In this document: in pieces, positions 4,340 to 62,936 of the stretch | Numbering within the stretch: position 1 is the stretch's first letter | How the letters are laid out: the number at the start of each line of letters is the position of its first letter | Assembly: GCF_963678975.1 (NCBI RefSeq) | Contig: NC_089274.1 | Span: 17,997,633 to 18,061,632, forward strand | Direction: 5' to 3' | DNA from: Dysidea avara | Lineage: Eukaryota > Porifera > Demospongiae > Dictyoceratida > Dysideidae | DNA: 64,000 nt | Position numbers and translations under genes: made by a program | Notes under the pieces: generated by a model | Seen by the model: only the letters and a program-made list of their open reading frames with translations | What the model was told of the DNA's origin: nothing | Database searches by the model: none

Positions 4340-5861
4340 TACTCAGATTGTAGGTTCATTGTATTTTATGCCTGCTTGTCACTCTGTAGTTAAGCCAGGA
4401 GGATCCACCAGCCTGGCATGTTAGTTTTTTGTACATTCTCTTTTTACTTCAGTGCCTGCTTGTTGGGGGACTGGTCTCTTGTGTCGTCAGATATCAAGCA
4501 AGTTCATTTGGTGCTGGAGGTTCACGAAAGTGATTAGATCAAGGATCAGATCAACATCAACACACACTGATTCACCATGTCGATGCAATTGGTATTTTAG
4601 ACATATGTGTAAGCAGTGCCAATTCACCGAGACCCGTCAGGTGAAACTTCTAGTAGCTCAAATTCCAGTATTATCTCGTGGCAGGATTGTTGACAAGGTG
4701 TACGGACTGAATACCAAATAACCATGGCTCTGTTATCATTTGTGGTCTCAGATGCTTCCGGATTATACTGTTGTGATGGGACCAAAGTAATATCGAGGTC
4801 AATAATGAGATTCATCTGGCCTGGTAAGATCTTAGCATTATTGTTTATGATCTATTGATTTTCCAGGATGAGGCATACAGTTGTGATGGGAATAAACTAA
4901 TTCATAGGTTACATGACTATCGCATTTTATAGTCAGAATTTTATTGTTAATATCACAAACAATTAATGTGATGTATTTTGTTGTATATTAAGTGACATGC
5001 ATGATGAAAGCCACAATGGGAGTGGTTAGGGTGGGTAATGCTATGTAGCTAACAAGCTGGTTTGAGCTCTACCAGAAGCTTGACAAGCGAGTTGACAAGT
5101 CAAATGTTAAGCAAGTTTAATACACCATGTGTGGCCGTGTGTGGTGTGGCACAAGAATTATGCTTGAAACACCTTCTCTAGTGACTACGTTCTTCACGCT
5201 TTCACACCTTATTTATAAGACATCTGCCAATTATCAACGCTTGAATGAGGCGTGGTATTAAATGGAGTTTAAAAAATTTCTGCTTAAAACGCTTTCCCTA
5301 GGGAACTTCAGGTTCTGCACGCTTTCACAACTTGTTTATCAGACAATAGGGCTTGTGTACACATCGTGTCTTTAAAAGTTACTGTAGGGATTAGAGGTTT
5401 GATCGAAGAAAATACGTGAATGAACAAACCAGAATTAGATAATGTCAGTGCTATACAGACTGTATAAACACAGCTATGTTGACTAGTATAACGTGACGGT
5501 AAGTGTACATAAGGTAGAGAAATAAAGTGAAATATGTGTAAATACGTCTATTTTTATATTTTAGCAAGGTCGCAAGACGATGATGACAACTCTTAAAGAT
5601 TTTTTTAACACATAACGCAATACAAATGCATTGAGAGATGTTGCATAATCCAGGGCTAATATTGTGAAACCGTCCCTACACGTAAATAACTCATAGTAGT
5701 GGCCGCACGCCTTTTAATTGGGCATGTGCTTCGTAGTTTCTTGGCCGTGTGACTCACTACTGTGAGTCTTGATGAGAAGCCAATGAGATCCAGAAGTCTT
5801 TAAGTGTTGAAGTAAAGTGGTCACTATGTAATTAGTAGGCAATCACACATTTTCATACAAA
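4340..5861. other. No gene; weak direct repeats
   Basis: No protein family is recognisable. Positions 5160-5225 and 5281-5345 are similar direct copies containing CACGCTTTCACA. Fragments at 4750-4900 repeat the phrase CTGTTGTGATGGGA. These look like worn repeats. Confidence 0.4.
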
Positions 5862-5953
5862 TAGGGAATAATTGTACACGACAGCCAAATTACACTCTGG
5901 CTTCACCTCATTTTAAGTGCAATTTTGACTATTACTCGTACAGTTATTCCCTA
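5862..5953. repeat. Small terminal-inverted-repeat unit (92 bp)
   Basis: The sequence starts TAGGGAATAATTGTAC and ends with GTACAGTTATTCCCTA, nearly its reverse complement, around a spacer of about 60 bp. This is a possible very short MITE with an unknown family. Confidence 0.5.
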
Positions 5954-5993
5954 ATTGCACTCATGTGTGTGAACTCATACCAAGAGTTCATAA

Positions 5994-6660
5994 TCAAGAC
6001 ACATGGTAGTGTGTCGTGCTGTCCAAGAAGCCAGCGCGCCACACCATGAGTATATTAACAGGAAGAAAGAAAATGCAATTTTCACACCTATGTAGCTCTG
6101 TGATCCCTAATCCGATTGGACCCAAATTTGCTAGAGAAGCTCCGGCCAGTTAGGGGAGTATACATACCAAATTTGAAGAAAATCGCTCCAGCCACTTCCG
6201 AGATATGAGCGAACAAAATTTCATTTTAATTTCTTCGTTTTTTCTTCTTCATTTCGCACACTTCACAAAATCTGCCATAAAACTCAAATGCGTGCTTGGA
6301 TCGGGCTGAAATGTGGCACATGTAAAGGGCTCATTAAGGCGGAGCTCAGTACCAACTTTGGTAGGAATCCGATGAACATTCACAGAGTTATGACCAATTA
6401 TTTGCGTAAAATAAGGTCAAAGGTCTGTCACGCCTACAGGGTAAACCCCTTGGAGGAATCGGTTGAAAATTGATATGTAGATGGAGTAACCATCGTAGGA
6501 GTGCCTTTTTGTGGTTTGAAAGGAATCGGGATAAAGACCATGGAGATATGACACTAAACCCAACCTGTGTCAAAATTATGCAATCAATTTTTATGAATAA
6601 AAAACTATTACCGTATAGGGGAATTTGTGAATTGGGAATATTTATGGATTTTTCATGTGT
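5994..6660 (+). repeat. End module of the composite minisatellite repeat, copy M1
   Basis: This begins with TCAAGACACATGG, a short imperfect hairpin and a GC-rich box like the other copies (M2 7878-8682, M3 15075-15906, M4 58726-59553). It then follows them over about 650 bp, including the phrase CACGCCTACAGGGTAAACC. It is truncated where the foldback at 6665 starts and lacks its own array. Its open frames are shadows of a non-coding repeat. Confidence 0.75.
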
Positions 6661-6664
6661 CACA

Positions 6665-7353
6665 AAAATTTACGAAACTGGACCATGACTGGACGTATAA
6701 AACTTGGCAGTCAATAGACAAAATGTGAAAAAGCAGCTCTGTCAGGTACTCTTATATATTAAAGAAGGTTTAGGATTAGTTGTTAATGTTTTTAAAAGCT
6801 TTCTAGCGACATATTTAGCGAGAAAATTCAATAAGAGGGTGGTTTTGCTCGTACTCATGCCTGATACAGACATTGGCATAACAGCCTCACTGTTAAAGCT
6901 TCGGAGCTCAAACTCCCGACACAACATTGGTGTGAACTGGTTAACAACAAGACGTGCTCAATTACAAAATCGGGCTGCTTGTTCAGCAGAAACCTCAACT
7001 TCAATTTTGCCATTGGAAATGTACGGTGATATTGAAGTCGAGATTTCTACTAAACACGTAGCACGATTTTGTAACTGAACACGTCTTGTTGTTAAGCAGT
7101 TCACAGCAATGTTGTGTCGGGGGTTTGAGCTCCGAAGCTTTAACAGTAAGGCTGTTATGCCAATGTCCGTATCAGGCATGGGTACGAGTAAAACCACCCT
7201 CTTAGCGAAGTTTCTCTCTAAATATCTCGCTAGAAAGCTTTGAAAAACATTAGCAACCAATTCTAAACCTTCGTTAATACATAAGAGTACCTCATAGGGC
7301 TGCTTTTTAACATTTAGTCCAGTTGCCTCGTAAATTTATACGTCCAGTTTTAT
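6665..7353. repeat. Foldback element of about 690 bp
   Basis: The two halves are reverse complements around a centre near 7010-7020. Because of this, a frame of about 100 codons on the plus strand (6704-7078) and one on the minus strand (6958-7260) encode nearly the same peptide. The outer ends share ACTGGACGTATAAA and its complement. It separates end module M1 from the 31-bp array at 7385. I see no homology to a known protein. Confidence 0.8.
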
Positions 7354-7384
7354 TTATGTTCCGTATACTTCGAGTATGCGAGTA

Positions 7385-7877
7385 CTCTCTACAAGGAAAC
7401 TTCTTCTAGCTGATCTCTCTACAGGGAGATTTGTTTGTAGCTGAACTCTCTACGGGTGATTTGTTTGCAGCTGAACTCTCTACATGATGGTTTCTTTCTC
7501 TCTACAAGGTAACTTCTTCTAGCTGATCTCTCTACAGGGCGATTTGTTTGTAGCTGAACTCTCTACATGATGGTTTCTTTGTAGCTGAACTCTCTGCGAG
7601 GTAACTTCTTCTAGCTGATCTCTCTACAGGTTGATTTGTTTGTAGCTGAACTCTCTACATGGTGGTTTCTTTGTAGCTGAACTCTACGAGGTGATTTCTT
7701 CTAGCTGAACTATCTCTTTCCATAGTTGCATGAACTCCCCACAAGGTAACTCCTTCTAGCTGATCTCTCTACAGGCTGAATTGTTTGTAGCTGATCTCTC
7801 TACAGGGTGACTTGTTTGTAGCTGATCTCTATACAGGTTACTTGTTTCTAGCTGATCTCTTGAATTCTCTTCAGGGT
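7385..7877 (-). repeat. 31-bp minisatellite array (about 16 units)
   Basis: Tandem units of 30-31 bp have the core TAGCTGAACTCTCTACA. They come in a few recurring variants (ending CAAGGTAACTTCTTC, CAGGGTGATTTGTTTG or CATGGTGGTTTCTTTG). It is the shortest of three arrays with this unit in the window. The orientation label is relative to the array at 59580. Confidence 0.9.
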
Positions 7878-8682
7878 GACTGCTCTATTAGGATGACTGC
7901 TCTATTAGAGTATCTCGATCTCGCACTTGCTACACCAAGTTGGATTTCGTGTTATAACTCCGTGGCTTTATGTCTGATTCTTCTACACCCTTTCTAAGAT
8001 GATTAGTCCATCTATACATTTTCAAAGCATTACTCCAAGCGGTTTATCTGGTAGGCGTGGCAAGCAGTCGTTTTTTATTAGCTAATCTCGATTGCATAAT
8101 TGTTACACACTGTTGGTTTTTTCGTTGTATCTTCCTGGTTTTTAGCTCGATTTCTTTCAAACCACAAAAGGTTTGAGGTTCAATAGTTAACCTATTCACC
8201 CACCGATTTTCAGCTTCTTCCCATACACGGTTTACCCTGTAGGCGTGACAACATATTGGTGTTATTTTTCGTGAATAATCGCTCATAACTCTTTGCCTGC
8301 TTATCGTATTCCAGCCAAAGTTGGTACTGAGATGCGCCCCTTCTGTGTGCCAAATTTCAAAGCAATCGGATATGGCGTTCGCATTTTATAGCAGTTTTTG
8401 TAAGTGTGCGAAAAGAGGAAGAAAAATAAGAAAAAAAACGAAGAAACTAAGCCAATTTGTGAAGTCGCATATCTTGAGAACGCTTGAAGCGATTGCACTC
8501 AAATTTGGAATGTGGAGTGCTGAAGTTGGAGGGCGTGTCCACAGTAAAAATCGTCTTGTTTCATCAAGGCAGCACAGAGCTACGGAGGTGCAAAAATTGC
8601 ATTTTTGTTCTTCCTGTCAATATACTCACGGGTGTTGCGCGCCGGCTTCTTGGGCCGCACGAGACACTACCATGTGTCTTGA
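7878..8682 (-). repeat. End module of the composite minisatellite repeat, copy M2
   Basis: This matches M3 (15075-15906) closely along its whole length and is in reverse orientation to M1 and M4. It joins the array at a TGACTGCTCTATTAGAG box and ends in the ACACTACCATGTGTCTTGA hairpin next to a TA microsatellite (8683-8704). The similar frames in M2 and M3 carry no recognised domain. Confidence 0.8.
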
Positions 8683-8884
8683 TATATATATATATATATA
8701 TATAATTTGTACAATTACTGATAAATCTGAATTAGTTAAAGTATTTAAAATCTGTTTCATCTTGTTCTTCTTCCTGTGGTAAAGAAAAAATTAAAGGTTA
8801 AAAAAGCCCTAAAGCTGGCCATAGGCCGGCTATGGGGGTATACAAATACAAAAAGGGGGTATACAAATACAAAAAGAAGTGAAA
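8683..8884 (+). repeat. TA microsatellite plus linker segment of the composite repeat
   Basis: After the TA run comes a linker containing CTTCTTCCTGTG, AGCCCTAAAGC, GGCCATAGGCCGGC and a duplicated GTATACAAATACAAAAAG. The same linker lies at 11784-11965 (reverse) and 62937-63111 (forward), in each case between a 31-bp array and the hairpin MITE. Here it instead abuts the outer tip of module M2, so this copy is rearranged. Confidence 0.75.
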
Positions 8885-9241
8885 TCTAATCCAAAACAGC
8901 CAAGCTGTAAAAAAAGAGTGTGACCCTCAGAAAGGCTATAGTGAAAAAAGATGTGAAATCCAAGGTGGCGGCCAAGAAATGGCTGTGATGGTAGGTTAAT
9001 GGTAAAAAATTTAATAACAACAATTCAGGTGAATTTTGTGCCAAGACCAAGTGGCACCTGAATTGTCGTTATTAAAATCAAGCGGTACAAAATTCACCTG
9101 AATTGTCATTATTAAAATTTTTACCATTAACCTACCATCACAGCCATTTCTTGGCCACCACCTTGGATTTCACATCTTTTTTCACCATAGCCTTTCTGAG
9201 GGCCGCACACTTTTTTTACAGCTTGGCTGTTTTGGATTAGA
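8885..9241. mobile_element. Hairpin MITE, copy 1
   Basis: It begins TCTAATCCAAAACAGCC and ends in the reverse complement. The two halves pair almost along their whole length with a small central loop. Other copies lie at 11456-11783, 63112-63272 (partial) and 63382-63648. There is no coding capacity. The flanks at 63382-63648 are TA-rich, consistent with TA targeting, but the superfamily is not certain. Confidence 0.85.
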
Positions 9242-10327
9242 TAATATATATACTAAGGAGAGTATCCTACTCTCATATATCCCTGTAGAAGGGCGTATCA
9301 TGAAGTTATGATGTAACAATTCTGAGTTCGCCCGTTTCTCTTTGTATAATTAATTATGTCATTAATTGAACATAATATCTATTGAACATGTGCCTAACAA
9401 TGTTGCTAGCAATCGAACTAACTCGAGCTCTTAGCACTTTTCACTGAACTACAAGCGTATCTTCATGGGTTTAACACAACTGCATAGGCATTTTCTTGCC
9501 TGGCCATTCGTGAATATGACTTTCCTGAATGTTGTGATTGTAAGGTTTGTTCTATAACATATATCCATGGTGTAAGGCAAAAGGATGATTCCTACCCTAC
9601 GAAATCACGAATCTTGAGTTTTTATAATAGGGGGTAGCAAAACTTGATACCATACTTTTACATAATGAGCAGCCATAAAAGTACAAGAATCATTAGAATT
9701 TTGCCAACATACTTGCCATACTAAGGCCAACATTTATTAATTCCTTGTTTCCCACATCACCCGCCTGCATGCCAGTTTTCCTATTAAATTTATTTAGAAA
9801 TACAAATAATTTGTGTCAAAGATCAAGATACTCTAATAGAGCAGCTATCAACTCTAATATAACACTCAGCTAGCTTACTACAGCAATCAAAACCATTACT
9901 TATCTAGTGGGAGGCATTTTACTACGTAGCTACAAACTCCTCCAAAAAGTTTGGAAAGTGCTTTGTTGTTGTCTGTGACACATATGAAAAGCCAGTCCTT
10001 TGAAACACCTAGCCTGTTGCTTGAAACACGGTGGCTAGTGGACAGTGTATTGCACCATTTTGAAGGTTCACCAAAATAATGAAATTATATTTATTAATAA
10101 TAATAACTGCCCACCCTCACTACCTGATTGCTAGGTGACAGGAAACAAGGAATAATCTTATTATTTTATTTATAATGTGCAGGACTCAGAATTGAGTGTA
10201 GCGTACATGTACAGATACAATTGATTAAAATATATAGATTATTTTCTATGTTGGCCTAAGAGCTGAGGATAGTTAGCACGCTAAAACTAAGCAAAATGTT
10301 TGACACCGCCATTAGGCCCCGCCATTA
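9242..10327. other. No gene recognised
   Basis: No domain or exon is visible. A copy of the dispersed ACTCTAATAGAGCAG motif lies at 9821-9845. The end carries a 14-bp direct duplication containing GCCATTAGGCCCC. Confidence 0.45.
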
Positions 10328-10782
10328 GGCCCCTATTTGGTGATTATTAGTTTCTCATCCACCACCCGCATCCTTCTTAAGCTACCGCATGGTAAGCCAT
10401 TATTTACTCTGTGCATGCCCAGAAGAACACGTGATACCAAACTGATATAATTTTTTGTTAATGAACGCTACAATGCGCTATATATTGCCAGGAGAACTGT
10501 TGTTTTCCTTAGCAAATTGCTGCAGTACCAGTTGCAATCGTGTTCTATCGACTTCATCAAAGCAGGCTTTCAGTTGACTGTCGAAAAACAGTTGGTGATC
10601 ACAAAAAGTAGAATCAGCTGGTGAAGGAAACGTTTGTAGTAAGAAAGAAAGACAATTTGGACAAGGTCTGTACATCAGTGTGTTAATATTATAAAATAAT
10701 GGCATAATGGTAATACCCTCCCGCCCGCATCATAATAATTAGAAAGGCTGGATGAGAAACTAATAATCACCAAATAGGGGCC
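10328..10782. mobile_element. PIF/Harbinger-like MITE with TTA target duplication
   Basis: The 34-bp inverted ends are exact (10328-10361 and 10749-10782, starting GGCCCCTATTTGGTG), and each is flanked by TTA. A three-base TTA duplication with G-rich ends is typical of PIF/Harbinger. Inside lies a 75-codon ATG frame on the minus strand (10478-10705) containing a CPNC motif. It has no family match I recognise and may be chance. Confidence 0.8.
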
Positions 10783-11027
10783 TTAGCCATAATACATTTC
10801 TTGACCAACAAAACTCGGAGCATGTCACGGAAAGGTTAACATGACCACACCTTAAAATGGCAACCCAATATACCTTCTGTGGGAAATTTAATTGGCTCAG
10901 TGATTTAAAAATAATAATTAACTCGACCATTATACAAAAGTAACTTAGATATTGCTGTAACAATATACACCTATTAAACTACTACCTATATACTTATTAC
11001 TAGCTATGTACTTAATAACTTAGCCTT
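10783..11027. other. Unassigned non-coding interval
   Basis: AT-rich sequence without a recognisable feature, between the PIF/Harbinger-like MITE and the LINE 3' end. Confidence 0.4.
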
Positions 11028-11425
11028 ATTTATTTATTTATTTATTGTTAATCAGCAGGACCCTCCAGGGGTATAATGCTGATGTACAATTACATGTGTA
11101 CAATTTCATAGTTACTTAACTATATAAGTATGTACAATTACTTAATTATATACATATGTACAATTACAATAATAAACTATAAAAATATATACAATTACGA
11201 TAAGTTACTTAACTATATACATAGAAGGGGCTAATTTTTGCTTAAATTCTTCAACACAGTCAGTCTCAATAATCTCATCATCTAATCTATTCCATTCTGG
11301 TACAGTTCTTGGGAGGAAGGAATATTTATATACATCAGTTCTTGGTTGGTAAGGTACTAGTTTAAAGTTGTGTGAGTGTCGGGTCCGTAATACAGTAGAT
11401 TTAAATGGGAGATAACAGTTCGGTA
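11028..11425 (-). mobile_element. LINE 3' end (C-terminus of the reverse-transcriptase ORF and 3' UTR)
   Basis: The minus strand from 11425 to 11222 encodes the usual tail of a non-LTR retrotransposon ORF2. It contains LRTRHSHNFKLVPYQ, then YSFLPRTVPEWNRLDDE, then VEEFKQKL, without a stop. A 3' UTR of about 190 bp follows and ends in a TTTATTTATTTATT tail (plus-strand sense) at 11028. This is a 5'-truncated insertion of the CR1/L2/Jockey type. The good frame suggests it is not very old. MITE copy 2 sits just beyond its broken end. Confidence 0.8.
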
Positions 11426-11455
11426 TAATTAATAAATCATGTAGTAGCTACTTTA

Positions 11456-11783
11456 TCTAATCCAAAACAGCCAAGCTGTAAAAAAAGTGTGCGGCCCTCA
11501 AAAAGGCTATGGTGAAAAAAGTTGTGAAATCCAAGGTGGCGGCCAAAAAATGGCTGTGATGGTAGGTTAATGGTAAAATTTTTAATAACAACAATTCAGG
11601 TGAATTTGGTGCCGCTTGGTCAATTGGCACAAAATTCACCTGAATTGCCGTTATTAAAATTTTTACCATTAACCTACCATCACAGCCATTTCTTGGCCGC
11701 CACCTTGGATTTCACATCTTTTTTCACCATAGCCTTTTTGAGGGCCGCACACTTTTTTTACAGCTTGGCTGTTTTGGATTAGA
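11456..11783. mobile_element. Hairpin MITE, copy 2
   Basis: A full-length copy of the hairpin element seen at 8885-9241, with ends TCTAATCCAAAACAGCC and its complement. It lies directly against the linker of the composite repeat (11784-11965), as the partial copy does at 63112. Confidence 0.85.
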
Positions 11784-11965
11784 TTTCACTTCTTTTTGTA
11801 TTTGTATACACCAAAGCCGGCCTATGGTCTGCTTTGGGACTTTTTAACCTATCTTTTTTCTTTACCACAGGAAGAAGAAAAGATGAAGCAGATGTACCTT
11901 AAATATTTCTGATTTTATCAGTAAATGTACAAATTATATATATAATACATATATTTATTACAGAA
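11784..11965 (-). repeat. Linker segment of the composite repeat (reverse)
   Basis: Reverse complement of the linker at 62937-63111. It carries the GCCGGCCTATGG box, the CAGGAAGAAG box and a TA-rich end leading into the 31-bp array. Confidence 0.75.
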
Positions 11966-11982
11966 CTGTCCATGGTGGTTTC

Positions 11983-14900
11983 TTTGTAACTGAACACTCT
12001 TCAAGGTAACTTCTTCTAGCTGTTCTCTCTACAGGGTGATTTATTTGTAGCTGGATTCTGTACAGGTGATTTTTTTGCTGCTGAGCTCTTTACAGAATGG
12101 TTTCTTTGTAGCTGAACTCTCTACTAGGTAACTTCTTCTAACTGATCTCTCTACAGGGAGATTTGTTTGTAGCTGAACTCTCTACAGGTGATTTGTTTGC
12201 AGCTGAACTATCTAGATGATGGTTTCTTTGTAGCTGAACTCTCTACAAGGTAATTTCTTCTAGCTGAACTCTCTACATGGTGGTTTCTTTGTAGCTGAAC
12301 TCTCTACAAGATAACTTCTTCTAACTGATCTTTCTACAGGGCAATTTGTTTGTGGCAGAATTTTCTACAGGGTGATTTCTTTGCAGCTGAACTCTCTACA
12401 TGGTGGTTTCTTTTTACTGTAGCTGAACTCTCTACAAGGTAATTTCTTCTAGCTGATCTCTCTACAGGGTGATTTGTTTGTAGCTGAATTCTATACAGGT
12501 GATTGTTTGCAGCTGAGTTTTTTACAGAATGGTTTCTTTGTAGCTGAACTCTCTACAAGGTAACTTCTTCTAACTGAACTCTCTACAGGGAGATTTGTTT
12601 GCAGCTGAACTTTCTTCATGATGGTTTCTTTGTAGCTGAACTCTCTACAAGGTGACTTCTTCTAGCTGATCTTTCTACAGGGTGATTTGTTTGTAGCTGA
12701 TTTTTCTACAGGGTGATTTGTTTGCAGCTGAACTCTCTATATGGTGGTTTCTTTGTAGCTGAACTCTCTACAAGGTGACTTCTTCTAGCTGATCTCTCTA
12801 CAGGGTGATTTGTTTGTAGCTGAACTCTCTTCATGATGGTTTCTTTGTAGCTAAACTCTCTACAAGGTAACTTCTTCTAACTGAACTCTCTACAGAGAGA
12901 TTTGTTTGCAGCTGAACTCTCTTCATGATGGTTTCTTTGTAGCTGAACTCTCTACAAGGTAACTTCTTCTAGCTGAACGCCCTACATGGTGGTTTCTTTG
13001 TAGCTGAACTCTCTACAGGTGATTTGTTTGCAGCTGAACTCTCCACATGATGGTTTCTTTAAATTTGTAGCTGAACTCTCTACAAGGTAACTTCTTCTAG
13101 CTGATCTCTCTACAGGGTGATTTGTTTGTAGCTGAACTATCTACAAGATAATTTCTTCTAGCTGATCTCTCTACAGGGTGATTTGTTTGTAGCTGAATTC
13201 TGTACAGGTGATTTGTTTGCAGCTGAGCTCTTTACAGAATGCTTTCTTTGTAGCTGAACTCTCTACAAGGTAACTTCTTCTAACTGAACTCTCTACAAGG
13301 AGATTTGTTTGCAGCTGAACTCTCTTCATGATGGTTTCTTTGTAGCTGAACTCTCTACAAGGTAACTTCTTCTAGCTGAACTCCCTACATGGTGGTTTCT
13401 TTGTAGCTGAACTCTCTACAAGGTGACTTCTTCTAGCTGATCTTTCTACAGGGTGATTTGTTTGTAGCTGAATTCTGTACAGGTGATTTGTTTGCAGCTG
13501 AGCTCTTTACAGAATGGTTTCTTTGTAGCTGAGCTCTCTACAAGGTAGTTTCTTCTAGCTGATGTCTCCACAAGGTCACTAGTTTGTAGCTGAACTTTCT
13601 ACATGGTGGTTTCTTTGTAACTGAACTCTCTACAAGGTAACTTCTTCTAGCTGATCTTTCTACAGGGTGATTTGTTTGTGGCTGAACTCTCTACAGGTGA
13701 TTTGTTTGCAGCTGAACTCTCCACATGATGGTTTCTTTGTAGCTGAACTCTCTACAAGGTAACTTCTTCTAGCTGATCTCTCTACAGGGTGATTTGTTTG
13801 TAGCTGAATTCTGTACAGGTGATTTGTTTGCAGCTGAGCTCTTTACAGAATGGTTTCTATGTAGCTGAACTCTTTACAAGGTAATTTCTTCTAGCTGATG
13901 TCTCTACAGGGTCACTAGTTTGTAAATGAATTCTCTACATGGTGGTTTCTTTGTAACTGAACTCTCTACGAGGTAACTTCTTCTAGCTGATCTTTCTATA
14001 GGGTGATTTGTTTGTAGTGGAATTCTGTAAAGGTGATATTTTTTGCAGCTGAGCTCTTTACAGAATGGTTTCTTTGTAGCTGAACTCTTTACAAGGTAAC
14101 TTCTTCTAGCTGATGTCTCTACAGGGTCACTAGTTTGTAAACGAATTCTCTACATGGTGGTTTCTTTGTAACTGAACTCTCTACAAGGTAACTTTTTCTA
14201 GCTGATCTCTCTACAGGATGATTTGCTTGTAGCTGAACTATCAACCAGGTAACTTCTTCTAACTGATCTCTCTACAGGGTGATTTGTTTGTAGCTGAATT
14301 CTGTACAGGTGATTTGTTTGCAGCTGAGCTCTTTACAGAATGGTTTCTATGTAGCTGAACTCTTTACAAGGTAACTTCTTCTAGCTGATGTCTCTACAGG
14401 GTCACTAGTTTGTAAATGAATTCTCTACATGGTGGTTTCTTTGTAACTGAACTCTCTACGAGGTAACTTCTTCTAGCTGATCTTTCCATAGGGTGATTTG
14501 TTTGTAATGGAACTCTGTGCAGGTGATTTTTTTTGCAGCTGAGATCTTTACAGAATGGTTTCTTTGTAGCTGAACTCTTTACAAGGTAACTTCTTCTAGC
14601 TGATGTCTCTACAGGGTCACTAGTTTGTAAACGAATTCTCTACATGGTGGTTTCTTTGTAACTGAACTCTCTACAAGGAAACTTCTCCTAGCTGATCTCT
14701 CTACAGGGAGATTTCTTTGTAGCTGAACTCTCTACAGGTGATTTGTTTGCAGCTGAACTCTCTACATGATGGTTTCTTTGTAGCTGAACTCTCTACAAGT
14801 TAACTTCTTCTAGCTGATCTCTCTACAGGGTGATTTGTTTGTAGCTGAACTCTCTACATTGTGGTTTCTTTGTAGCTGAACTCTACAAGGTGATTTCTTC

Positions 14901-15074
14901 TAGCTGAATTATCTCTTTCTATAGTTGCATGAATTCCCTACAAGGTAACTTCTTCTAGCTGATCTCTCTACAGGGTGAATTGTTTGTGGCTGATCTCTCT
15001 ACAGGGTGACTTGTTTGTAGCTGATCTCTATACAGGTTACTTGTTTCTAGCTGATCTCTTGAATTCTCTTCGGG
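11983..15074 (-). repeat. 31-bp minisatellite array, about 100 units
   Basis: About 3.1 kb of tandem 30-31-bp units with core TAGCTGAACTCTCTACA. Variants recur in a regular order (TAACTTCTTCTAGCTGATC, then GTGATTTGTTTGTAGCTG, then TGGTTTCTTTGTAGCTG). This gives a higher-order period of several units and suggests amplification of multi-unit blocks. There is no coding potential. The array ends abruptly at the conserved module M3. Confidence 0.95.
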
Positions 15075-15906
15075 TGACTGCTCTATTAGGATGACTGCTC
15101 TATTAGAGTATCTCGATCTCGCACTTGCTACACCAAGTTGGATTTCGTGTTATAACTCCGTGGCTTTAAGTCTGATTCTTCTACGCCATTGAAGAGCCTT
15201 TCTAAGATGATAACTCCATCTGTACAGCAATTTTCAAAGCATTACCCCAAGCGGTTTACCTGGTAGGCGTGGCAAGCAGTCGTTTTTTATTAGCTGATCT
15301 CGATTGCGTAATTGTTACACACTGTTGGTTTTTTCGCTGTATCTTCCTGGTTTTTAGCTCGATTTCTTTCAAACCACAAAAGGTTTGAGGTTCAATAGTT
15401 AACCTATTCACCCACCGATTTTCAGCTTCTTCCCATACGCGGTTTACCCTGTAGGCGTGACAACATATTGGTGTTATTTTTCGTGAATAATCGCTCATAA
15501 CTCTTTGCCTGTTTATCGTATTCCAGCCAAAGTTGGTACAGAGATGCGCCTTTATACCCCCCTTCTGTGTGCCAAATTTCAAGGCGATCGGATAACGCGT
15601 TCGCGTTTTATAGCAGTTTTTGTAAGTGTGCGAAAAGAGGAAGAAAAACAAGAAAAAAAAAACGAAGAAACTGAGCCAATTTTTGAAGTCGCATATCTCG
15701 GGAACGCTTGAAGCGATTTCGCTCAAATTTGGAATGTGGAGTGCTGAAGGTGGAGGGAGTGTCCACAGCAAAAATCGTCTTGTTTCATCAAGGCACCACA
15801 GAGCTACGGAGGTGCGAAAATTGCGTTTTCTTTCTTCCTGTCAATATACTCACGGGTGTTACGCGCCGGCTTCTTGGGCCGCACGACACACTACCGTGTG
15901 TCTTGA
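15075..15906 (-). repeat. End module of the composite minisatellite repeat, copy M3
   Basis: About 830 bp, closely similar to M2 and, in reverse, to M1 and M4. It runs from the TGACTGCTCTATTAGAG box beside the array to the terminal ACACACTACCGTGTGTCTTGA hairpin. Several points inside carry variants of two phrases, GAGATATG or GAGTTATGA, and AAATTTGGNA. This hints that the module was built from degenerate subunits of roughly 100-130 bp. The 171-codon minus-strand frame is not supported as a gene. Confidence 0.8.
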
Positions 15907-16239
15907 TATATTTTTATACCTCGCCGGGGCGTACCTCGCACAGTATTGCCTTACCAGTCACAATAGCTCCCTCCAGTATGCAATAGATATTTAGTAGGAT
16001 CAAGGAAATTATCGGCTTCGCGAAAATTTGCAAACAACGAGGTCGCCAAGGACCTAATCCACAGCCGGGAGTACACTGATCCTGATCGCCATTACTATGC
16101 GTGTATAAATTCGCTGAACCATCCTTTCTGTCCTGCTTTCTATCCTCCATGTCTCAAGAGAAAGTAACACCAATCACCAAAGGTGTGGTGTGATCGAGCG
16201 GAGGGGATATAAACTCGGATATCAACAACACCCACCAAA
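15907..16239. other. No gene recognised
   Basis: Short frames only. No repeat boundary is identified between the module tip and the probable LINE fragment. Confidence 0.4.
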
Positions 16240-42340: not shown

Positions 42341-43433
42341 ATTCAGAATACATTTATATATTGTATATTATATTTTTCTACTGTTCTCTACAATGGACAA
42401 TGTTAGTCTGGTGCTGTTTGCTCCTTCACAAAAAAATTAAGGGGCTGGTGAAACACAATGCTTCTAGAGAGCAATCATCTGCCATAACTAGTTGTTATAA
42501 TGTACACTGTCTCTTTGAAATGATACGGGATTGTGTTTCCAAGGAAATTTGTGTGTAAACGTCATTGTATAATGCATTAATTGGCTGGTACAAAAGTTCA
42601 GTGCTAGAAATGATGTGATTTGTATCTACCAGACCCTTAAAGTGGCGGGCTAGGTAAATGTATTGATAGTATTATACACAGTGAAACTTGTTCATATAAG
42701 AATTATAGAAGGCTATAAGGATGGCCATGCACTTTGTTCAAATGAATGACCATCATATAATTAAGACAGCATCTACTGTATTGAAGATCAAGATTATCAG
42801 AATCATGTGCCTGTGTGTAAGTTTGAAAGTTCTGTTCTATAGTAAGCTGGTGTTACATTTCCACAACACACGTCGAGTTGATATTTTGTGATCTTCAATC
42901 GACATTACAGGTGTATGTATACCATATTAAGAAAGACAGTTGGAGTTGTATACTATAAGTTCAGATCTCTTTGTGGGACAGGCTGGCCAAAAGTTTTAGT
43001 TTTGTCACTGCCATTGAAAGTGGGAACTATAAATATTTAACTATATATCTCGATCGTGTACTTGTTACACCTAGTTCACTTTCACAGAGTAGCTCAGTGG
43101 ATTTTACTTGTAAACCACTGAAAGATTGCTCTAAAATAATATATCTATACCTCTCTACCTGATTTCAGCTGATTCCGTTAACTGGTATAGGTGTGGCAAG
43201 TACTACTCTTTTTTATTAACAAAACTTGATATAGAATTATATATAAACTCAATAAACTATAGATAAGCATTCATTAAATGTTTATTTCTAATCTGAATGT
43301 GAGGTCAGCTAAAATTTTTTCTTATAGATTTACGGTACGTGTGACTTAACAATTTACATTCATTTTGATAAACTGAAAATAAAACACACCTGGAACTGAT
43401 GTTGGTGTGACCATCACACTCTGTTCTGATGTT
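42341..43433. other. Spacer between ABHD and fucosyltransferase A (convergent)
   Basis: The 3' flanks of the two genes lie here. I see no further gene. A TATACACAGTGAAACTTG stretch near 42675 looks like a lone pogo-type end. Confidence 0.45.
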
Positions 43434-44591
43434 CTAGTTACTTGTGTTAATAGCAGCGCTAGCTAGTGTATACCTTCCTCTACAACGTTGCTGTTTCAAC
43501 TGATATGATTCTTTGCACATTGTACAACCTAATAATTCTGTTGGGCAATTCTTTTGAAACTTCAGAGTATGATCAATATCAAATTTGAAAAATGACTGAT
43601 AGAGTGATTCATCTTCATCAATTTTCTTGATAAGTGCTGCCAATTGTTTGGGTTCATACTTCTTAGCATCTATAAATGAGTTAGCCCCTGGTACCTGATC
43701 ATATATGTAACTGTCACCATAATATATAGGAATGGCTTGAGCCAAGTAAGCATGCCAAATCTTTTCTGAAATATACTCACGAAGGCTAGGGGAATTTTCA
43801 AACGTCAATACAAACTTGTATCCTTTGCTTTTAATAATGTCCAATTTTATTGAAATAAATGAATCCGATCCTATATTTCTTGAACTTTTCATATCAGTAT
43901 TATGCAAGCATTTGCCATATGAGTCAACATCAATATATTCCATTAGTTGTGTCATATAATCTTGTCTCCATTTGATACAGTGACTAACAAACATGGCAAC
44001 TCCATTTCTGCCAACTGGTGGCTCCTGTCTTAGTATATCAATCAGAGGCTGTTTAATATCAGGCCAGCAAATATATGGGTAAGGAATTGCATTAGCTAAT
44101 GTGTAACTAACTCTGATGTCACCCAGTGGTAACACTTTATTGCACTCCTTATGTTCTGGCCCACGATTGTATCTAAGCATTATTTGTCCAGGATATGCTG
44201 GCTGAGTTACATCAGTACCACATTCACGAATAAGTAACACATCAGCAGTTTCATAATCATACTCGTTACTGGTTAGCTCACAGACTGCACCATTAGGTAA
44301 AGTACAGTTTTTAGCCTCTTCTCCATGGGCTATGAACTGCCATCCCACAGTATCTGGTCTTGTTAGCTGGTAGTATATTGAAATTTTGGCCTGATCCTTA
44401 CACAGAGGACTGTCTATGCCCACTGATGGTGTGGAACGGATTTGTCCCAAGAATCCTTGCCGTGCACTAATCGTATTCTGTTCTTTACTCCAAAAATGAG
44501 GGATTCCATATAGTAGTAGTGCTATTATCAACAAGAATACACACAGCTTCAATCGATAATTTACAATATATACACACGTAGTTTCCCACAT
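43434..44591 (-). CDS. GT10 alpha-1,3-fucosyltransferase, copy A
   Basis: An intronless frame of 385 residues. I take ATG at 44591 because the frame's extra two codons upstream begin with GTG. It is a type II Golgi protein in layout: short cytosolic tail, membrane anchor at about residues 15-30 (LKLCVFLLIIALLLYGI), stem, then the catalytic domain. GT10 landmarks are FVSHC, VDSYGKCLHN and the donor-binding block at about 260-279 (FVLTFENS..REYISEKIW), then AIPIYYGD and SFIDAKKY. C-terminal cysteines (about 349, 356, 359, 370) match the disulfide-bonded end of the family. The reaction is transfer of fucose from GDP-fucose to GlcNAc on glycans; linkage and acceptor are inferred. Copy B (54211-55344) is nearly identical over the catalytic domain. 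Copy A has about 13 extra C-terminal residues and a different stem. Confidence 0.93.
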   Translation of the reverse strand: MWETTCVYIVNYRLKLCVFLLIIALLLYGIPHFWSKEQNTISARQGFLGQIRSTPSVGIDSPLCKDQAKISIYYQLTRPDTVGWQFIAHGEEAKNCTLPNGAVCELTSNEYDYETADVLLIRECGTDVTQPAYPGQIMLRYNRGPEHKECNKVLPLGDIRVSYTLANAIPYPYICWPDIKQPLIDILRQEPPVGRNGVAMFVSHCIKWRQDYMTQLMEYIDVDSYGKCLHNTDMKSSRNIGSDSFISIKLDIIKSKGYKFVLTFENSPSLREYISEKIWHAYLAQAIPIYYGDSYIYDQVPGANSFIDAKKYEPKQLAALIKKIDEDESLYQSFFKFDIDHTLKFQKNCPTELLGCTMCKESYQLKQQRCRGRYTLASAAINTSN

Positions 44592-44970
44592 AGCCACAAA
44601 CTGACAAAGGCGCAGGCCTCGAACAACAGAACCGGAATCAGGATTGGAATGGAAAGGAACGGAACGGAATGACCAATTTTTTGTGCTCGCTTCTTGTAGC
44701 TACTTTGCCAGCGACATGTCGGTAATCCTCATATTGCGAGGCGTATATTGTACTTTACATGAGTCAGGACCGAGGTGTGACACGCTGCTTGAGGAGCAAT
44801 CAGCTATAGTATTAGCTAAGCAGTCAATACCGAAAATTTTGCAAAAGATCGAAATACTCTAATAGAGCAGTCATTCACGTAAATCATACGAAAATAATTA
44901 TCATGATTTTTTTTTTCCACGAGAATTAGTACTGATTTATGGTTGGACTGATTCTCCTCTTGTGTCTATA
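44592..44970. promoter_or_regulatory. Upstream flank of fucosyltransferase A with GGAAC/GGAAT repeats
   Basis: A run of GGAATGGAAAGGAACGGAAC at about 44647-44666 lies about 60-75 bp from the start codon. A related run precedes fucosyltransferase B. GGAA-core arrays can bind ETS-type factors in animals, but a regulatory role here is only a suggestion. A copy of the dispersed ACTCTAATAGAGCAGTCA motif lies at 44855-44873. Confidence 0.35.
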
Positions 44971-46626
44971 TAGAGTAAATTATCTATTCTCGGACACCAT
45001 GTATACTCGGACACTCGTTCTCGTAAACTGCTGGACAGAATCCTACGAAAATTGGTGTGGAGATACCTTGCATATAGCCTAACTATATAGCTACCTCAAA
45101 GTTTGAGCCAAAACGCTTGTTTGATTGTTGTGCTAGACCACATCAAAGTCGTTGCTCGAAATAATATATTCTCGGACAAAATTCAAGTATTGTCGGACAC
45201 CGGTCAGTAATCCTACATCAAATACTTTAAAGACTTACCACCAAACCATCTGTTAGGGCTATTCATTAGCTATCAGCAGAGCCATAGTTTATTTCTTTCT
45301 ATCTCATTTGCAGGAAGCTGTGATCGGAAATATGCGAGCATGTCACCACCTCTATTCTCGGACACGAGCTATCAGCTGGTTCCCGTACACGGTTATACCA
45401 AACCGTATGAAAATTATTGTGGACATACTTTATACATAGCCTATCTGAACCTCCAAGTTTGAGCTAAAAAGCTTTTATGGTTAGCTAACTAGAGCGGATT
45501 AAAGTTTCCACGAGAAAATTAGTATTCTTATTTTTCTCGGATAATAGCCAATGCTTCCTACCCCAAATAATTTAGCCACTTCGTACCACCACCATCTGAT
45601 AGAGCTGTTCATTGGCTATCAGCAGAGCCACAGTTTATTTATTTCCATTACCGTTATGGATAGTTATGATCGGAAATATGCGAGTATATGTAATTACATC
45701 TATTCTCGGACACATTGTTTCTGTGCTGTGTGATTGAATCTTGGCTCCAGCTATTACTGGGGAAATTTTTTTACTTTTCATTGACTTGAACTACTTTAAA
45801 TAGCATGTAATGCCAGTGAACTACCTTTTTGTACCACCAAAAATAGCTGGAGCCAAGATTCAATCACACAGCACAGAAACAATGTGTCCGAGAATAGATG
45901 TAATTACATACTCGCATATTTCCGATCATAACTATCCATAACGGTGATGGAAATAAATAAACTGTGGCTCTGCTGATAGCCAATGAACAGCTCTATCAGA
46001 TGGTGGTGGTACGAAGTGGCTAAATTATTTGGGGTAGGAAGCATTGGCTATTATCCGAGAAAAATAAGAATACTAATTTTCTCGTGGAAACTTTAATCCG
46101 CTCTAGTTAGCTAACCATAAAAGCTTTTTAGCTCAAACTTGGAGGTTCAGATATAATATAGGCTATGTATAAAGTATGTCCACAATAATTTTCATACGGT
46201 TTGGTATAACCGTGTACGGGAACCAGCTGATAGCTCGTGTCCGAGAATAGAGGTGGTGACATGCTCGCATATTTCCGATCACAGCTTCCTGCAAATGAGA
46301 TAGAAAGAAATAAACTATGGCTCTGCTGATAGCTAATGAATAGCCCTAACAGGTGGTGTTGGTGGTAAGTCTTTAAAGTGTTTGATGTAGGATTACTGAC
46401 CGGTGTCCGGCAATACTTGAATTTTGTCTGAGAATATATGATTTCGAGCAATGACTTTGATGTGGTCTAGCACAACAATCAAACAAGCGTTTTGGCTCAA
46501 ACTTGGAGGTATAGTTAGGCTATATGCAAGGTATCTCCACACCAATTTTCGTAGGATTCTGTCCAGCAGTTTACGAGAACGAGTGTCCGAGTATACATGG
46601 TGTCCCAGAATAGATAATTTACTCTA
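44971..46626. repeat. Giant foldback element, 785-bp arms
   Basis: Arms 44971-45755 and 45842-46626 are near-perfect reverse complements (starting TAGAGTAAATTATCTATTCT) around a loop of about 86 bp. Each arm is itself built of two or three related segments carrying CTATTCTCGGACAC and GATCGGAAATATGCGAG. No coding capacity. Very high arm identity suggests recent origin or ongoing homogenisation. It begins 380 bp upstream of fucosyltransferase A. Confidence 0.9.
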
Positions 46627-47116
46627 GCTATAGCTAAGTCATGCAGTGTTCATGCACTGACACATAAAACTAGCCGCCATATTTATAAGCTGAGACAGCT
46701 CCCATGATGCAGCTGCATGATTATGCCCATGCAGTGAATTTGACAAATTACAGTTTGCAATAAATGACACGATTAATAAGTACAGAAATGTCCAATAATT
46801 ATTATAAATCAAGTGGTCATTCCAATATCTTATTGTTCTAGGAAAGTTGCTAACTGTTCATGTAGGCACCTGTTCTGACTTGTGGTGGGTGGTATAGCTA
46901 GGATTGATGATGATGAAATATTGTTATGCATGTTAATGGAATTATATACTAGTATGTAAGACGCATCATGCATCCTTTTTGTAATGATGTAATGTACGGC
47001 GTAGTGGTGACAATGTGACTATAATAATCATTTAATATCTGTTGAGGAGCTCTAACCTTTGAGTAAGGATCCTATACACTAAACTAGCATATTCAAGCAT
47101 AGTCGTGCTGTATGAA
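46627..47116. repeat. Left part of a dispersed repeat
   Basis: 46790-47116 resembles 29240-29510 (shared GTTCATGTAGGCA, TAGCTAGGATTGATGATG and GAGGAGCTCT-type blocks). It is interrupted at 47117 by the hAT element and continues at 48192-48330. Confidence 0.5.
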
Positions 47117-47309
47117 CAGGGCCGCCCACAGAGGGGGGCAACTGGGACATTTTCCCCGGGCCCCGACTTGAAAGGGGCCCCAGGAGGTCCCATGAAGGGC
47201 CCCTTGAATACCTGTTTAAAAGATCGATATACTCTAATAGAACAGTCAGATATAAATACTCTAATAGAGCAGTCACAGTACTCTTCAGAGGAGCAGTGTA
47301 ACAAGCTTA

Positions 47310-47640: not shown

Positions 47641-47969
47641 CAGGGCCGCCCACAGGGGGGGGGGGGGGGGGGGGGGCCCAGGAGGCCCCATGAAGGGCCC
47701 CCCGAATACCTGTTTAAAAGATCGATATACTCTAATAGAGCAGTCAGATCTAAATACTCTAATAGAGCAGTCACAGTATTCTTCAGAGGAGCAGTGTAGC
47801 AAGCTTATAGATAAGGAGATATGGTTGGTGATGGGTAGTTATTGTCACTGCCAGCAGGTTGTGACATTTTTTTTTTTTTTTTTTTTTTGGTCTTCACCTT
47901 TACAACTTGGGTGAAGGGCCCCACTTTAACTCTTTGCCCTGGGCCCCTTAATTTCTCTGGGCGGCCCTG
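47641..47969. mobile_element. hAT-type element B nested in element A
   Basis: A 329-bp member of the same family as element A, with ends CAGGGCCGCCCA and GGGCGGCCCTG and an exact 8-bp duplication TTTACAGC (47633-47640, 47970-47977). It contains a 22-base G run at 47655-47676 and a long T run near 47868-47888, both likely to be length-variable. It landed in SINE-tail sequence inside element A. Confidence 0.93.
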
Positions 47970-51380: not shown

Positions 51381-53233
51381 GAATTTAAAATTTCACACAG
51401 TTTGTGATTTGAAGTATTAGTCTCAGTGCATAACACTATAGATGGCAATTATTTGCTAATTTATCTCCAAATCTTTGGCATGACAGTTGTAATTAATAAG
51501 TGATTGCTGCACATGCTTGCCACATTAAGTGGTAGGCCAATTTTAGATTGCATTGATTATTACTACTACACAATGCATTTTGTGCCAATGGTAGTGGTGT
51601 AAAAGCTTGTTGTTAAGCACTTAATGACAATGTTGACATAAAATTTTCTCTTTAGAGTTAAAGAAATGATTGGCATAAAATCTTCTCTTTAGACATAAAG
51701 ACAGTTTTTGTCATCATCACGAATGTCTGCACAACAGGCAATTGTAGTACACAAACAATGAGCCAGCTGCAGGATGGCTAGGACAGAACAAAGGTCAGCA
51801 CATGCAAAAGGACATAGTCTCAGTCTCCAGCATCAATGCCAGATGGATCAGCAGCACCTAAAGTTTGAAGTACAGCATAACTCTAAAGACAGAACCATCT
51901 AGTATGTCAAAGATAGCTGAATGTGCTGGAGTTGCCTGTCTGGTAGCAAGCTGCTGAATGTAGTGGAGCAGCAGCTGGATGTTTAGACTTCAGAATGCCA
52001 TACTTTACCAGAATCAGGTATAGTGTCATCTAAACAAAGAACACAGAAGACAAAAGCAGGAGAGCAGCAGTGTCTCTTACCAGAAAACATCAACTTTTCA
52101 AAGGACTGTGACAAACAACTATTATTAGAAGAGTCTCAAACACTTGTGTGAAAATGACTTTAAATAGCTCTGCCTTCTATACTTACTATATCTGTCCATA
52201 GTGACAATCTTTACAAGATAATTATGTGGTCCTATAATTTTGATGTACGTGTTAACTTCTGAGTTATTAAAGTACGAATATGTAAACTTCACAGAATAGA
52301 CTTAAACTAGCTAAATCCTTCCTTTGCAGATAGAAAAGGCTGGGCAAACTTAACTCTAACTAGCACAATTTCTTGCCAATGTTTCCAGAAAGTATTTTAA
52401 TACTGTTGCTTCACTTAATTCACCATAAGTAACCTCCGTCAGCACAGGAGTGGATGAAGGTACAAAATCTGGTAGGAAACAGGATTGATCTTCAGTTGAC
52501 TCTTTATTTAATTTAAGAATCAGACAAATGAGACTAGCATCAAAGATGATGTAGCTAGATCAACAGATGCCTTAGGGCATAGATCAGGGGCATGGTTTCC
52601 ATATTTGGTAGCTATAAGTGCAGGGTCATCTGTGTCACAGCCCCAGCTGTTTGGACATTAAAATGCTTCAAAATTACTGAGATTCATGATTCCATGGGTA
52701 GTCAATACTGATATGGTTGGTTAACAGTTGGTAGTGATCCAAACTGAAAACCTACTAAATTATATATTCTTAAAATTTTCTTACATTAATTTTATTCTTT
52801 ACAATTATATTCCATTATGAATATTCTATTAGAGTATACTTTTGATTGTTCTATTGGAATTTTACTCTATTAGAGTATCTCGATCTTTGTTAACAAACAT
52901 ACTGGTAGCTATCTCCCTTGTTCTCTCCTGATCGACTTCAATGTATGTTTCCTATTACGTATACATTGTAGCTATACTGCCCTGTTCCCAGTCTGATGTT
53001 TCTGCATTCCAACATTTCAGCTTGAGGGAGTTATTATTATTACAGTATCTATATTGTATAAAAGCACTGGTAATAATTAATTACAAAATATAATAAGAGT
53101 TTCCAGAAACTGGCCCCTGATTTCTCTTGGCAAGTGAAAATTCATAATTTCCATTGGCATAATGTATACAATATATTATCATAAAATTGTTAGCATAATT
53201 TTGCTTGCAAGACTGAATACAAAAGGCTATATA
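51381..53233. other. Mostly unassigned; upstream remnant of the reverse transcriptase
   Basis: About 51740-52050 on the minus strand contains LGAADPSGIDAGD in broken frames. This resembles the GAAGPSGxDA region that precedes the palm in the same RT family, so the dead element probably spanned 50556-52050. Further right I see two dispersed-motif copies (52826-52886) and no gene. Confidence 0.4.
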
Positions 53234-54210: not shown

Positions 54211-55344
54211 TTAACTTCCTCTACAACGCTGTTGTTTCAACTGATACGATTCTTTGCACATTGTACAACCTAATAATTCTATTGGACAATTCTCTTGAAA
54301 CTTTAGAGTATGATCAATATCAAATTTGAAAAATGACTGATAGAGTGATTCATCTTCATCAATTTTCTTGATAAATGCTGCCAATTGTTTGGGTTCATAC
54401 TTCTTAGCATCTATAAATGAGTTAGCCCCTGGTACCTGATCATATATGTAACTGTCACCATAATATATAGGAATGGCTTGAGCCAAGTAAGCATGCCAAA
54501 TCTTTTCTGAAATGTACTCACGAAGGCTAGGGGAATTTTCAAACGTCAATACAAACTTGTACCCTTTGCTTTTAATAATGTCCAATTTTATTGAAATAAA
54601 TGAATCCGATCCTATTTTTCTTGAACTTTTCATATCAGTATTATGTAAGCATTTGCCATAAGAGTCAACATCAATATATTCCATTAGTTGTGTCATATAA
54701 TCTTGTCTCCATTTGATACAGTGACTAACAAACATGGCAACTCCATTTCTGCCAACTGGTGGCTCCTGTCTTAGTACATCAATCAGAGGCTGCTTAATAT
54801 CAGGCCAGCAAATGTATGGGAAAGGAATTGTGCTAGCTAATGTGTAACTAACTCTGATGTCACCTAATGGCAATGCTCCAACCTGATTACACTTCTGATG
54901 TTCTGGTGCACGATTGTACCTAAGGATTATTTGTCCAGGATATGCTGGCTGAGTTACATCAGTACCACATTCACGAATAAGTAACACATCAGCAGTTTCA
55001 TAATCATACTTGTTACTGGTTAGCTCACAGACTAAACCATTAGGTAAAGTACAGTTTTTTGCCTCTTCTCCATGGGCTATGAACTGCCACTTCACATTTT
55101 TTGTGAGCTTGTAATAGATTGAAAAGTTGCCCTGATCTTTACACAGAGGACTGGAACCCTTGTGTATGCCCATTCGTGTGGAAGGACCTCGGGAGAGACG
55201 GATTTGTCCTGTCATCCTTGCCGCATCAGTGATGCTCTGTTCATCACTCCAAAAATGGGGGATTCCATATATCAGTAGTGCTATAATTACCAACATAAAG
55301 AATACACACAGCTTCGGTCTGTAAGTTACGCTAAGAATGTCCAT
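54211..55344 (-). CDS. GT10 alpha-1,3-fucosyltransferase, copy B
   Basis: An intronless frame of 377 residues from ATG 55344 (MDILSVTYRPKLCVFF). The longer frame upstream starts with TTG and is not used. It has the same layout as copy A: membrane anchor at about residues 12-30, stem, then catalytic domain with FVSHC, VDSYGKCLHN, FVLTFENS..REYISEKIW, AIPIYYGD and the C-terminal cysteine cluster ending QRCRGS. From the HGEEAKNCTLPNG block onward the two copies differ at only a few positions. The membrane anchor and stem differ more, including a longer RGPSTRMGIHKGSS insertion here. Both appear functional and probably fucosylate N- or O-glycans in the Golgi. High identity confined to the catalytic domain suggests gene conversion or relaxed stem evolution. 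Confidence 0.93.
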   Translation of the reverse strand: MDILSVTYRPKLCVFFMLVIIALLIYGIPHFWSDEQSITDAARMTGQIRLSRGPSTRMGIHKGSSPLCKDQGNFSIYYKLTKNVKWQFIAHGEEAKNCTLPNGLVCELTSNKYDYETADVLLIRECGTDVTQPAYPGQIILRYNRAPEHQKCNQVGALPLGDIRVSYTLASTIPFPYICWPDIKQPLIDVLRQEPPVGRNGVAMFVSHCIKWRQDYMTQLMEYIDVDSYGKCLHNTDMKSSRKIGSDSFISIKLDIIKSKGYKFVLTFENSPSLREYISEKIWHAYLAQAIPIYYGDSYIYDQVPGANSFIDAKKYEPKQLAAFIKKIDEDESLYQSFFKFDIDHTLKFQENCPIELLGCTMCKESYQLKQQRCRGS

Positions 55345-55379
55345 TGTAACTGAGAGTGACCACAAATTAAAGGCGGCCT

Positions 55380-58725: not shown

Positions 58726-59553
58726 TCAAGACACACGATAGTGTGTCGTGCGGCCCAAGAAGCCGGCGCGCCACACAGTGAGCATATTGACAGGAAGAAA
58801 GAAAACGTCATTTTCACACATTTGTATCTCGGTGATACCTCATCCGATTGGAACCAAATTTGCTGCAGAGTTGCCCGCCAGCTAGGGGAGTCTACATTCC
58901 AAATTTGAAGGAAATCACTCAAGCCATTTCCGAGATACGAGTGGCCAAAGTTTGGTTTTTTTTCTTCTTCGTTTTTTTTTTTTTTCTTCTTCGTCTTTTC
59001 GCACACTTGCAAAAATTGCTATAACAAGCAAACGCGTACTCCGATCGCCTTGAAATTTGGCACACAGAAAGGGAGTCCAAAGGCCAATCCTAGCATCAAC
59101 TTTGGTACAAATCCGATGAATGGTTCAGGAGTTATGACCGATTATTCGCGTAAAACAAGATCGATTTGTTGTCACGCCTACAGGGTAAACCGCTTCATGG
59201 AATGAGTTGACAATTGCTATGTAGATGGAGTAACCATCGTAGGAGTGCCTTTTGGTGGTTTGAAAGGAATCGAGATAAATACCACGGAGATATGACACAA
59301 AACCCAACCTGTGTCACAATTACGCGATCAATTTTTAGGAATAAAAAAGTATTAGTTTTCACGCCTACTAGGCAAACCGCTTAGAGCAATGAGCTGAAAA
59401 TCGGTGTATAGCTGGAATAATCTTCATAGAAAGTACTTGCAGTAGTACAGAAGAATCGGATTACAAACCACTGAGTTATGATTCGAAAGCCAACTCCGTG
59501 TAGCAAATGCGAGATCGAGATACTCTAATAGAACAGTCACCCTAATAGAGCAT
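58726..59553 (+). repeat. End module of the composite minisatellite repeat, copy M4
   Basis: From the terminal TCAAGACACACGATAGTGTG hairpin and GC-rich box to the ACTCTAATAGAACAGTCA box beside the array at 59580. It is collinear with M1 and with M2/M3 in reverse. Repeated phrases CACGGAGATATGACAC, GAGTTATGACCG, CACTGAGTTATGA and AAATTTGG occur at intervals. Non-coding. Confidence 0.82.
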
Positions 59554-59579
59554 TCGGCTAATTTATTTACTCCATTATA

Positions 59580-62920: not shown

Positions 62921-62936
62921 AATAATGGGCATGTAA

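Follow-up and report, generated by a model that had tools for sequence, protein, structure and literature searches.

Canonical Helitrons insert between an A and a T without duplicating the target (according to the available parts of PMC5148889 and PMC4778049). DINE-1/HINE elements, as presented in the accessible portion of PMC4067079, are non-coding, carry an end stem-loop and optional central repeats, and have subterminal inverted repeats (subTIRs) and TT targets. Here we describe an element of the sponge Dysidea avara that resembles DINE-1/HINE in the first three features and differs from them in the last two. It was analysed in a window of 64,000 nucleotides (assembly GCF_963678975.1, contig NC_089274.1, positions 17,997,633 to 18,061,632), where the original prediction, made from the letters alone, had drawn a composite repeat of hairpin, linker, array of 31-bp units and end module. 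With a probability of about 0.87, this is one non-autonomous, non-coding mobile element of ~3.4–5.2 kb, consisting of a ~330-bp palindromic head beginning TCTAATCC, a linker, the 31-bp array, the module and a stem-loop tip ending in TTGA. Its parts keep a constant order between constant outer ends, it inserts at A|T without duplication, its array is copied with the ends, and its spread is recent. The family is young, large, non-autonomous and Helitron-like, with a minisatellite core.

In copy 1, on the plus strand, the predicted order of parts at 11456-15906 was confirmed. The head (11455-11784) is self-complementary over 330 bp (94.5%), and the element starts at 11456 (A|TCTAATCC). The linker (11784-11965) matches other window copies with 84% identity at 8855-8682 and 78% at 63108-62932. 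The array (11966-15059; Tandem Repeats Finder span 11974-15059) has 102 units of 31 bp and ends at 15059, not at 15074 as predicted. The module (15075-15906) is matched over its full length and at ≥97% by at least 40 genome loci, copy 1 counted; within the window it is 92.5% identical to 7877-8682 and 75% to 59555-58726, and its positions 208-832 are 72% identical to 6605-5994. The tip (15885-15906) is a 7-bp stem with a 4-nt loop followed by TTGA; the element ends at 15906 and a T comes next. This outer hairpin had been predicted, and one further window tip, at 5752-5772, was found beyond those noted. The tip ACACACTACCGTGTGTCTTGA has five window matches at ≤3 mismatches, where 0.00 are expected (100 shuffles). 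A perfect stem with TTGA occurs three times (simulated mean 0.13, maximum 1, 15 simulations) and one with a single mismatch six times, two of these being non-tips (simulated mean 1.67, maximum 4). The last 50 bp of the module are better kept than the remainder in three of four tested window module pairs (p = 0.0006, 0.002 and 0.005; the fourth 0.13); in the pair of copies 1 and 3, outside that test, the end is no better kept than elsewhere. At its inner edge the module has a ~27-bp motif (CTCTATTAGAGTATCTCGATCT-like) that is also dispersed without module or array (9820-9868, 44846-44874, 47221-47275, 47719-47773 and 52843-52886, as well as in the autonomous-type Helitron L043 discussed below). 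The module also holds an internally repeated ~190-bp unit, with a weak stand-alone match (61%) at 43046-43230.

The genome (550.8 Mb, 108 contigs, in which the window is C3:17997633-18061632) was then searched with module and linker. The module gave 4556 first-look candidates, the best 40 of which were scored; all were full length at ≥97%, the window copy included, and 20 of the other 39 were fetched together with ~7.5 kb of preceding and 1.5 kb of following sequence. Head, linker, array and module followed one another in 18 of these 20 copies, complete copies measuring 3358–5202 bp, and the 31-bp array and a common boundary at the module tip were present in all 20. The linker gave 1708 first-look candidates, with the best 40 scored (≥98%). 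Five of these have a listed module 1.7–6.8 kb downstream, in each case in the right order and on the right strand (window copy included); the other 35 are uninformative, as only 40 of the 4556 module candidates were listed. Three further linkers, met by chance in fetched loci, all adjoin a hairpin, and both of those with enough sequence enter an array. The earlier proposals that the parts co-occur and that insertions share a boundary at the module tip were thus both borne out.

The element start, TCTAATCCAA, directly follows an A in all 17 readable copies (L020 has an N there), and the end, CTTGA, directly precedes a T in 20/20, with 19 of 20 tips sharing the same 22 bases. Within the window, a T follows all five tips and an A precedes the head in both copies that have an outer head end. 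Further flanking bases vary (TA, TT, TG or TC after the element, TA or AA before it); across the insert, nine of the 17 copies share no letters, six share two (TA) and two share four. The window flanks (~500 bp; ~220 bp at the fifth tip) showed no homology between copies at E 0.01 beyond shared element parts and overlapping flanks. Comparison with empty sites, as originally proposed, succeeded at locus L016, where a diverged duplicate of the target ~2 kb away reads straight across A|T; 145 of 160 positions are identical, the seven gaps lie away from the junction, and no base is duplicated. Because of the A|T ends, the lack of duplication and this empty site, the insertion is of Helitron type, at A|T and without target-site duplication. 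When the flanks of L022 are joined, one reading frame spans the junction, and this frame has a stop further left. The 18 complete copies have dissimilar head and module ends, which are not mutual inverted repeats. In L022, the terminal 57 bp of the element are repeated directly after the tip (8336-8392; 98%), again with CTTGA before T, and a similar extra tip piece is listed at C6:1920853-1920902.

The copies L019 (3977 bp, contig C3) and L022 (4045 bp, contig C2) are 97.9% identical over their full length, array included, and their flanks have no similarity in 400 bp on either side; their largest difference is extra 17-bp units at the module edge. Here a satellite moved within a precise insertion, since a near letter-identical array lies between the same ends at two sites on different contigs. 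Over 19 copies, mean divergence was 1.9% in the module, 3.2% in the head, 7.0% in the linker, and 20.6% and 9.2% at the start and end of the array. Distances between copies correlated positively for all ten pairs of parts (module, linker, head and array ends; Mantel r 0.28–0.83, 0–2 of 999 permutations as high), which, together with the likeness of L019 and L022, indicates that the element is copied whole and that its array drifts fastest. The element has spread recently to many places in the genome, carrying its minisatellite along. Two subfamilies share head, linker and module. In ten copies and copy 1, linker passes to array via ACATATATTTATTACA-like DNA (one base differs in L017). Eight others (L023, L015, L020, L024, L025, L027, L028 and L030) have extra DNA at this junction with inverted ends GACCGG...CCGGTC, 232 bp long in L023, the only one measured. 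This insert looks like a miniature inverted-repeat transposable element (MITE) that landed in one copy and then multiplied with the element.

The three window arrays consist of one 31-bp unit (17, 102 and 110 units) with an identical majority consensus (wrap-around alignment; 223 of 229 units used), and each runs in a constant direction into a module that ends in the stem-loop tip. The units were sorted into six types chosen by the analyst. Runs of W-X-Y-Z and W-X-Z are seen in copy 1 and on the linker side of copy 2, where W-X or Z-W steps number 48 and 19; shuffling gave means of 16.5 and 6.3 and in 2000 trials never reached the observed numbers. The pattern is weaker in the array of copy 3, with six such steps against a shuffled 2.8 (36 of 2000 as high). 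On its module side, copy 2 shows a pattern of eight units, with a lag-8 identity of 0.837 compared with 0.776–0.814 at other lags; the best lag in copy 1 is 7 (0.808), and none stands out clearly on the linker side of copy 2. Slippage or unequal exchange, either while the element is copied or afterwards, may alter array length. How short satellite arrays spread, and how higher-order unit patterns grow once an array has been inserted, can be counted directly in one genome.

The predicted mirror image of copy 1 at 58726-63272 stood for module, array and linker; its head retains only the linker-side arm. This old copy 2, on the minus strand, has its module at 58726-59555 (tip at 58726), an array of 110 units at 59585-62930 with the eight-unit pattern on the module side, a linker matching that of copy 1 at 62932-63109 and the head arm at 63110-63270. 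The broken head abuts another palindrome (63272-63760) with a hairpin copy at its TA-rich centre; this hairpin, without linker (63387-63650), also sits as A|TC...GA|T.

The region 5994-9241 had been called a rearranged copy. Its parts were matched, and it is best read as an old minus-strand copy interrupted by a young, headless plus-strand copy and by a fold-back element. Old copy 3 would comprise a head at 8884-9242 (A|TCTAATCC at 9241), a linker at 8704-8884 (74.5% to that of copy 2) and a module at 5994-6610 that lacks its inner ~210 bp (81% to copy 2), all on the minus strand. The young nested copy would comprise an array of 17 units (7384-7860) and a module with tip (7877-8682, 95.5% to copy 1 over aligned positions), both on the plus strand and without hairpin end and linker; it adjoins a TA stretch belonging to the old linker. 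Copies 1 and 3 are identical at 127/151 positions (84%) in the linker and at 770/806 (95.5%) in the module (p = 2e-6 for the mismatch), because, on this account, the linker belongs with the old left module and the young module is a nested insertion. The fold-back element (6688-7348) is no part of the mobile element; the 7-bp direct repeat CCGTATA at 6611-6617 and 7361-7367 brackets it, a possible target duplication. To the left lies the tip of a divergent relative (5738-5772, plus strand, tip match at 5752-5772), whose stem is kept via one two-sided change, a weak compensation that 105 of 500 shuffles equalled. A small stretch with short inverted ends (5862-5955) lies between two facing tips.

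Several points weigh against a single element of Helitron type. The canonical 3' CTRR is absent, the end being TTGA in 20/20 copies, or TAGA if the element is read the other way. L016 is one clean empty site only, and the 20 fetched copies are the best module matches, among which old and broken copies are under-represented. The copies L014 and L029 retain module and tip but start part-way through the array, flanked by unrelated DNA, as does the nested window copy, and if the head is the Helitron 5' end its loss in these three would be odd. The hairpin also stands alone (63387-63650). Finally, no mover sharing the tip was found: L043/L044, the one Helitron family whose ends were read, does not match.

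Helitron proteins are nonetheless abundant in this genome. The Helitron_like_N profile gave at least 150 matches above cut-off (150 of 230 candidates scored), in open frames of up to 2798 amino acids, and none in 14 control genomes. The loci L043 and L044 are two copies of one young, autonomous-type Helitron family of ~6 kb (L043:1650-7609, reverse-strand count; L044:525-6489) with frames of 1550 and 1552 amino acids and canonical ends, starting TCTATATT and ending in CTAG after a stem-loop. The longest stretch they share with the element is 23 bases, within the dispersed 27-bp motif. A second Rep pair is alike over the whole 5.7 kb fetched, with no end within that span, so the autonomous relative sharing the tip that had been predicted was sought in one Rep family with readable ends and was not found there. 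The likeliest candidate for the mover is a Helitron resident in this genome; a Helitron-type Rep/helicase supplied in trans would transfer the element replicatively as a single strand, and either the tip stem-loop or the head palindrome would signal start or stop. In Helraiser, the 3' hairpin is described as the stop signal, with read-through and circular intermediates (available text of PMC4778049); transferred to this element, the model would make the tip the 3' end. Conversely, L014, L029 and the nested copy lose the head and not the tip, and L022 repeats its 57-bp tip end like the 5' pieces reported for FoHeli in the accessible part of PMC5148889, and these observations would instead place the 5' end at the tip. 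Since A|TC is read inwards from either end and the A|T target is symmetrical, the sequence alone fits either end as 5'. Taken further, and held tentatively at somewhat below even odds, the family may be an independent branch of Helitron-like elements that insert at A|T, with ends of an undescribed type. Its non-autonomous members would disperse minisatellites of kilobase size and pass on their unit order; transposition would then seed satellite arrays genome-wide, and a nested MITE would now be part of one subfamily.

Four other explanations were weighed. The Helentron or HINE branch named in the original prediction offers a tandem-repeat core and an end stem-loop, and the 31-bp array is indeed in 20/20 copies; in copies 1 and 2 a 10–13-bp inverted match even joins linker and tip region (0–1 of 60 shuffles as long). 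However, this match is too far inside, ~80 bp into the linker and 61–74 bp from the tip, and at the hairpin end, which only copy 1 can test, no perfect match to the tip region exceeds 9 bp (a length reached in 4 of 60 shuffles), and no subTIR pair was found there. With A|T and not TT in 17/17 copies, where an A stands left of the element, we regard this assignment as improbable; the Helitron-like class named in the same prediction was supported. Two separate mobile parts side by side, a hairpin-linker MITE and an array-module element, would suit the hairpin without linker at 63387-63650, the hairpin and linker of copy 3 outside its nearest tip, and the unequal identities of linker and module between copies 1 and 3 (127/151 and 770/806). 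Against this, one and the same pair of ends encloses all four parts in 18 of the 20 fetched copies, and the mismatch in copy 3 is gone if its young module is a nested insertion, which leaves this explanation very improbable.

A cut-and-paste transposon that duplicates TA might be suspected from the TA-rich flanks and from the copies that share TA (6/17) or four bases (2/17). Yet 9/17 share nothing, the flanks read AA or TA on the left and TA, TT, TG or TC on the right, the L016 empty site has no duplicated base and the ends are not mutual inverted repeats, so such a transposon is more improbable still. The arrangement at 5993-8683 suggests a fold-back element whose two ends are module arms, and the outer 53 nt of the two modules there are 91% complementary; these modules are, however, only 70% alike overall, and a second inverted module forms the other end in 0/20 copies, 18 having a head and two stopping inside the array. 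We give this last explanation almost no weight. The single Helitron-like element remains our reading.

Among 102 listed window frames of at least 75 amino acids, 16 were scanned against Pfam, which gave two GT10 genes, a PTH2 exon and one hydrolase match below threshold, and nothing else. No Rfam match at gathering score and no tRNA was found in the window; of 12 permissive Rfam matches at 5500-16100, all below gathering score, ten were microRNA families on palindromes. The 31-bp unit showed no folding (z +1.07). In microbial and viral contig collections, tip, 31-bp unit and two other motifs gave no match, nor did the hairpin arm in the microbial set, an absence that says little for such collections; a 20-base hairpin motif matched five viral contigs with 20–23 bases, plus weak stray matches. 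Elsewhere the window holds two other palindromes, one near-perfect of 1.67 kb (44966-46633, 94% self-complementary) and one of 0.83 kb (736-1567, 96%), and two paralogous GT10 fucosyltransferase genes on the minus strand (43434-44699 and 54211-55419), 89% alike in DNA over ~1.1 kb. Literature searches, which covered neither the Repbase nor the Dfam repeat library, gave no description of the element.

Compared with known systems, the element shares with canonical Helitron1 the A|T insertion without duplication (A on the left in 17/17, T on the right in 20/20), the TC start and a stem-loop near an end. It differs in ending in TTGA rather than CTRR, in its 7-bp stem-loop, which directly precedes TTGA flush at the end where the canonical hairpin lies ~10–12 nt from the 3' end, and in the ~330-bp palindrome at the other end. 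Such unusual ends widen the notion of a Helitron-type end, and families of this kind could escape CTRR-based searches. The non-canonical FoHeli Helitrons of Fusarium oxysporum likewise lack CTRR, and some have repeated terminal pieces and nested copies; they differ in asymmetric terminal inverted repeats, in their target sites and in being autonomous (PMC5148889, in the part available). The fold-back element Tetris also carries tandem repeats as it moves and exists in many rearranged forms, and differs in its long matching terminal inverted repeats and 8–10-bp target duplications (from the accessible text of PMC4079207). Cg_HINE of Crassostrea gigas, as far as the available part of PMC7492417 describes it, is also non-autonomous and dispersed, with tandem repeats between conserved flanks and a constant array orientation. 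Its monomers, however, are ~140–180 bp long and mostly number up to five, at most 29, with subTIRs and TT targets, whereas here 31-bp units are carried in elements of 3.4–5.2 kb that insert at A|T.

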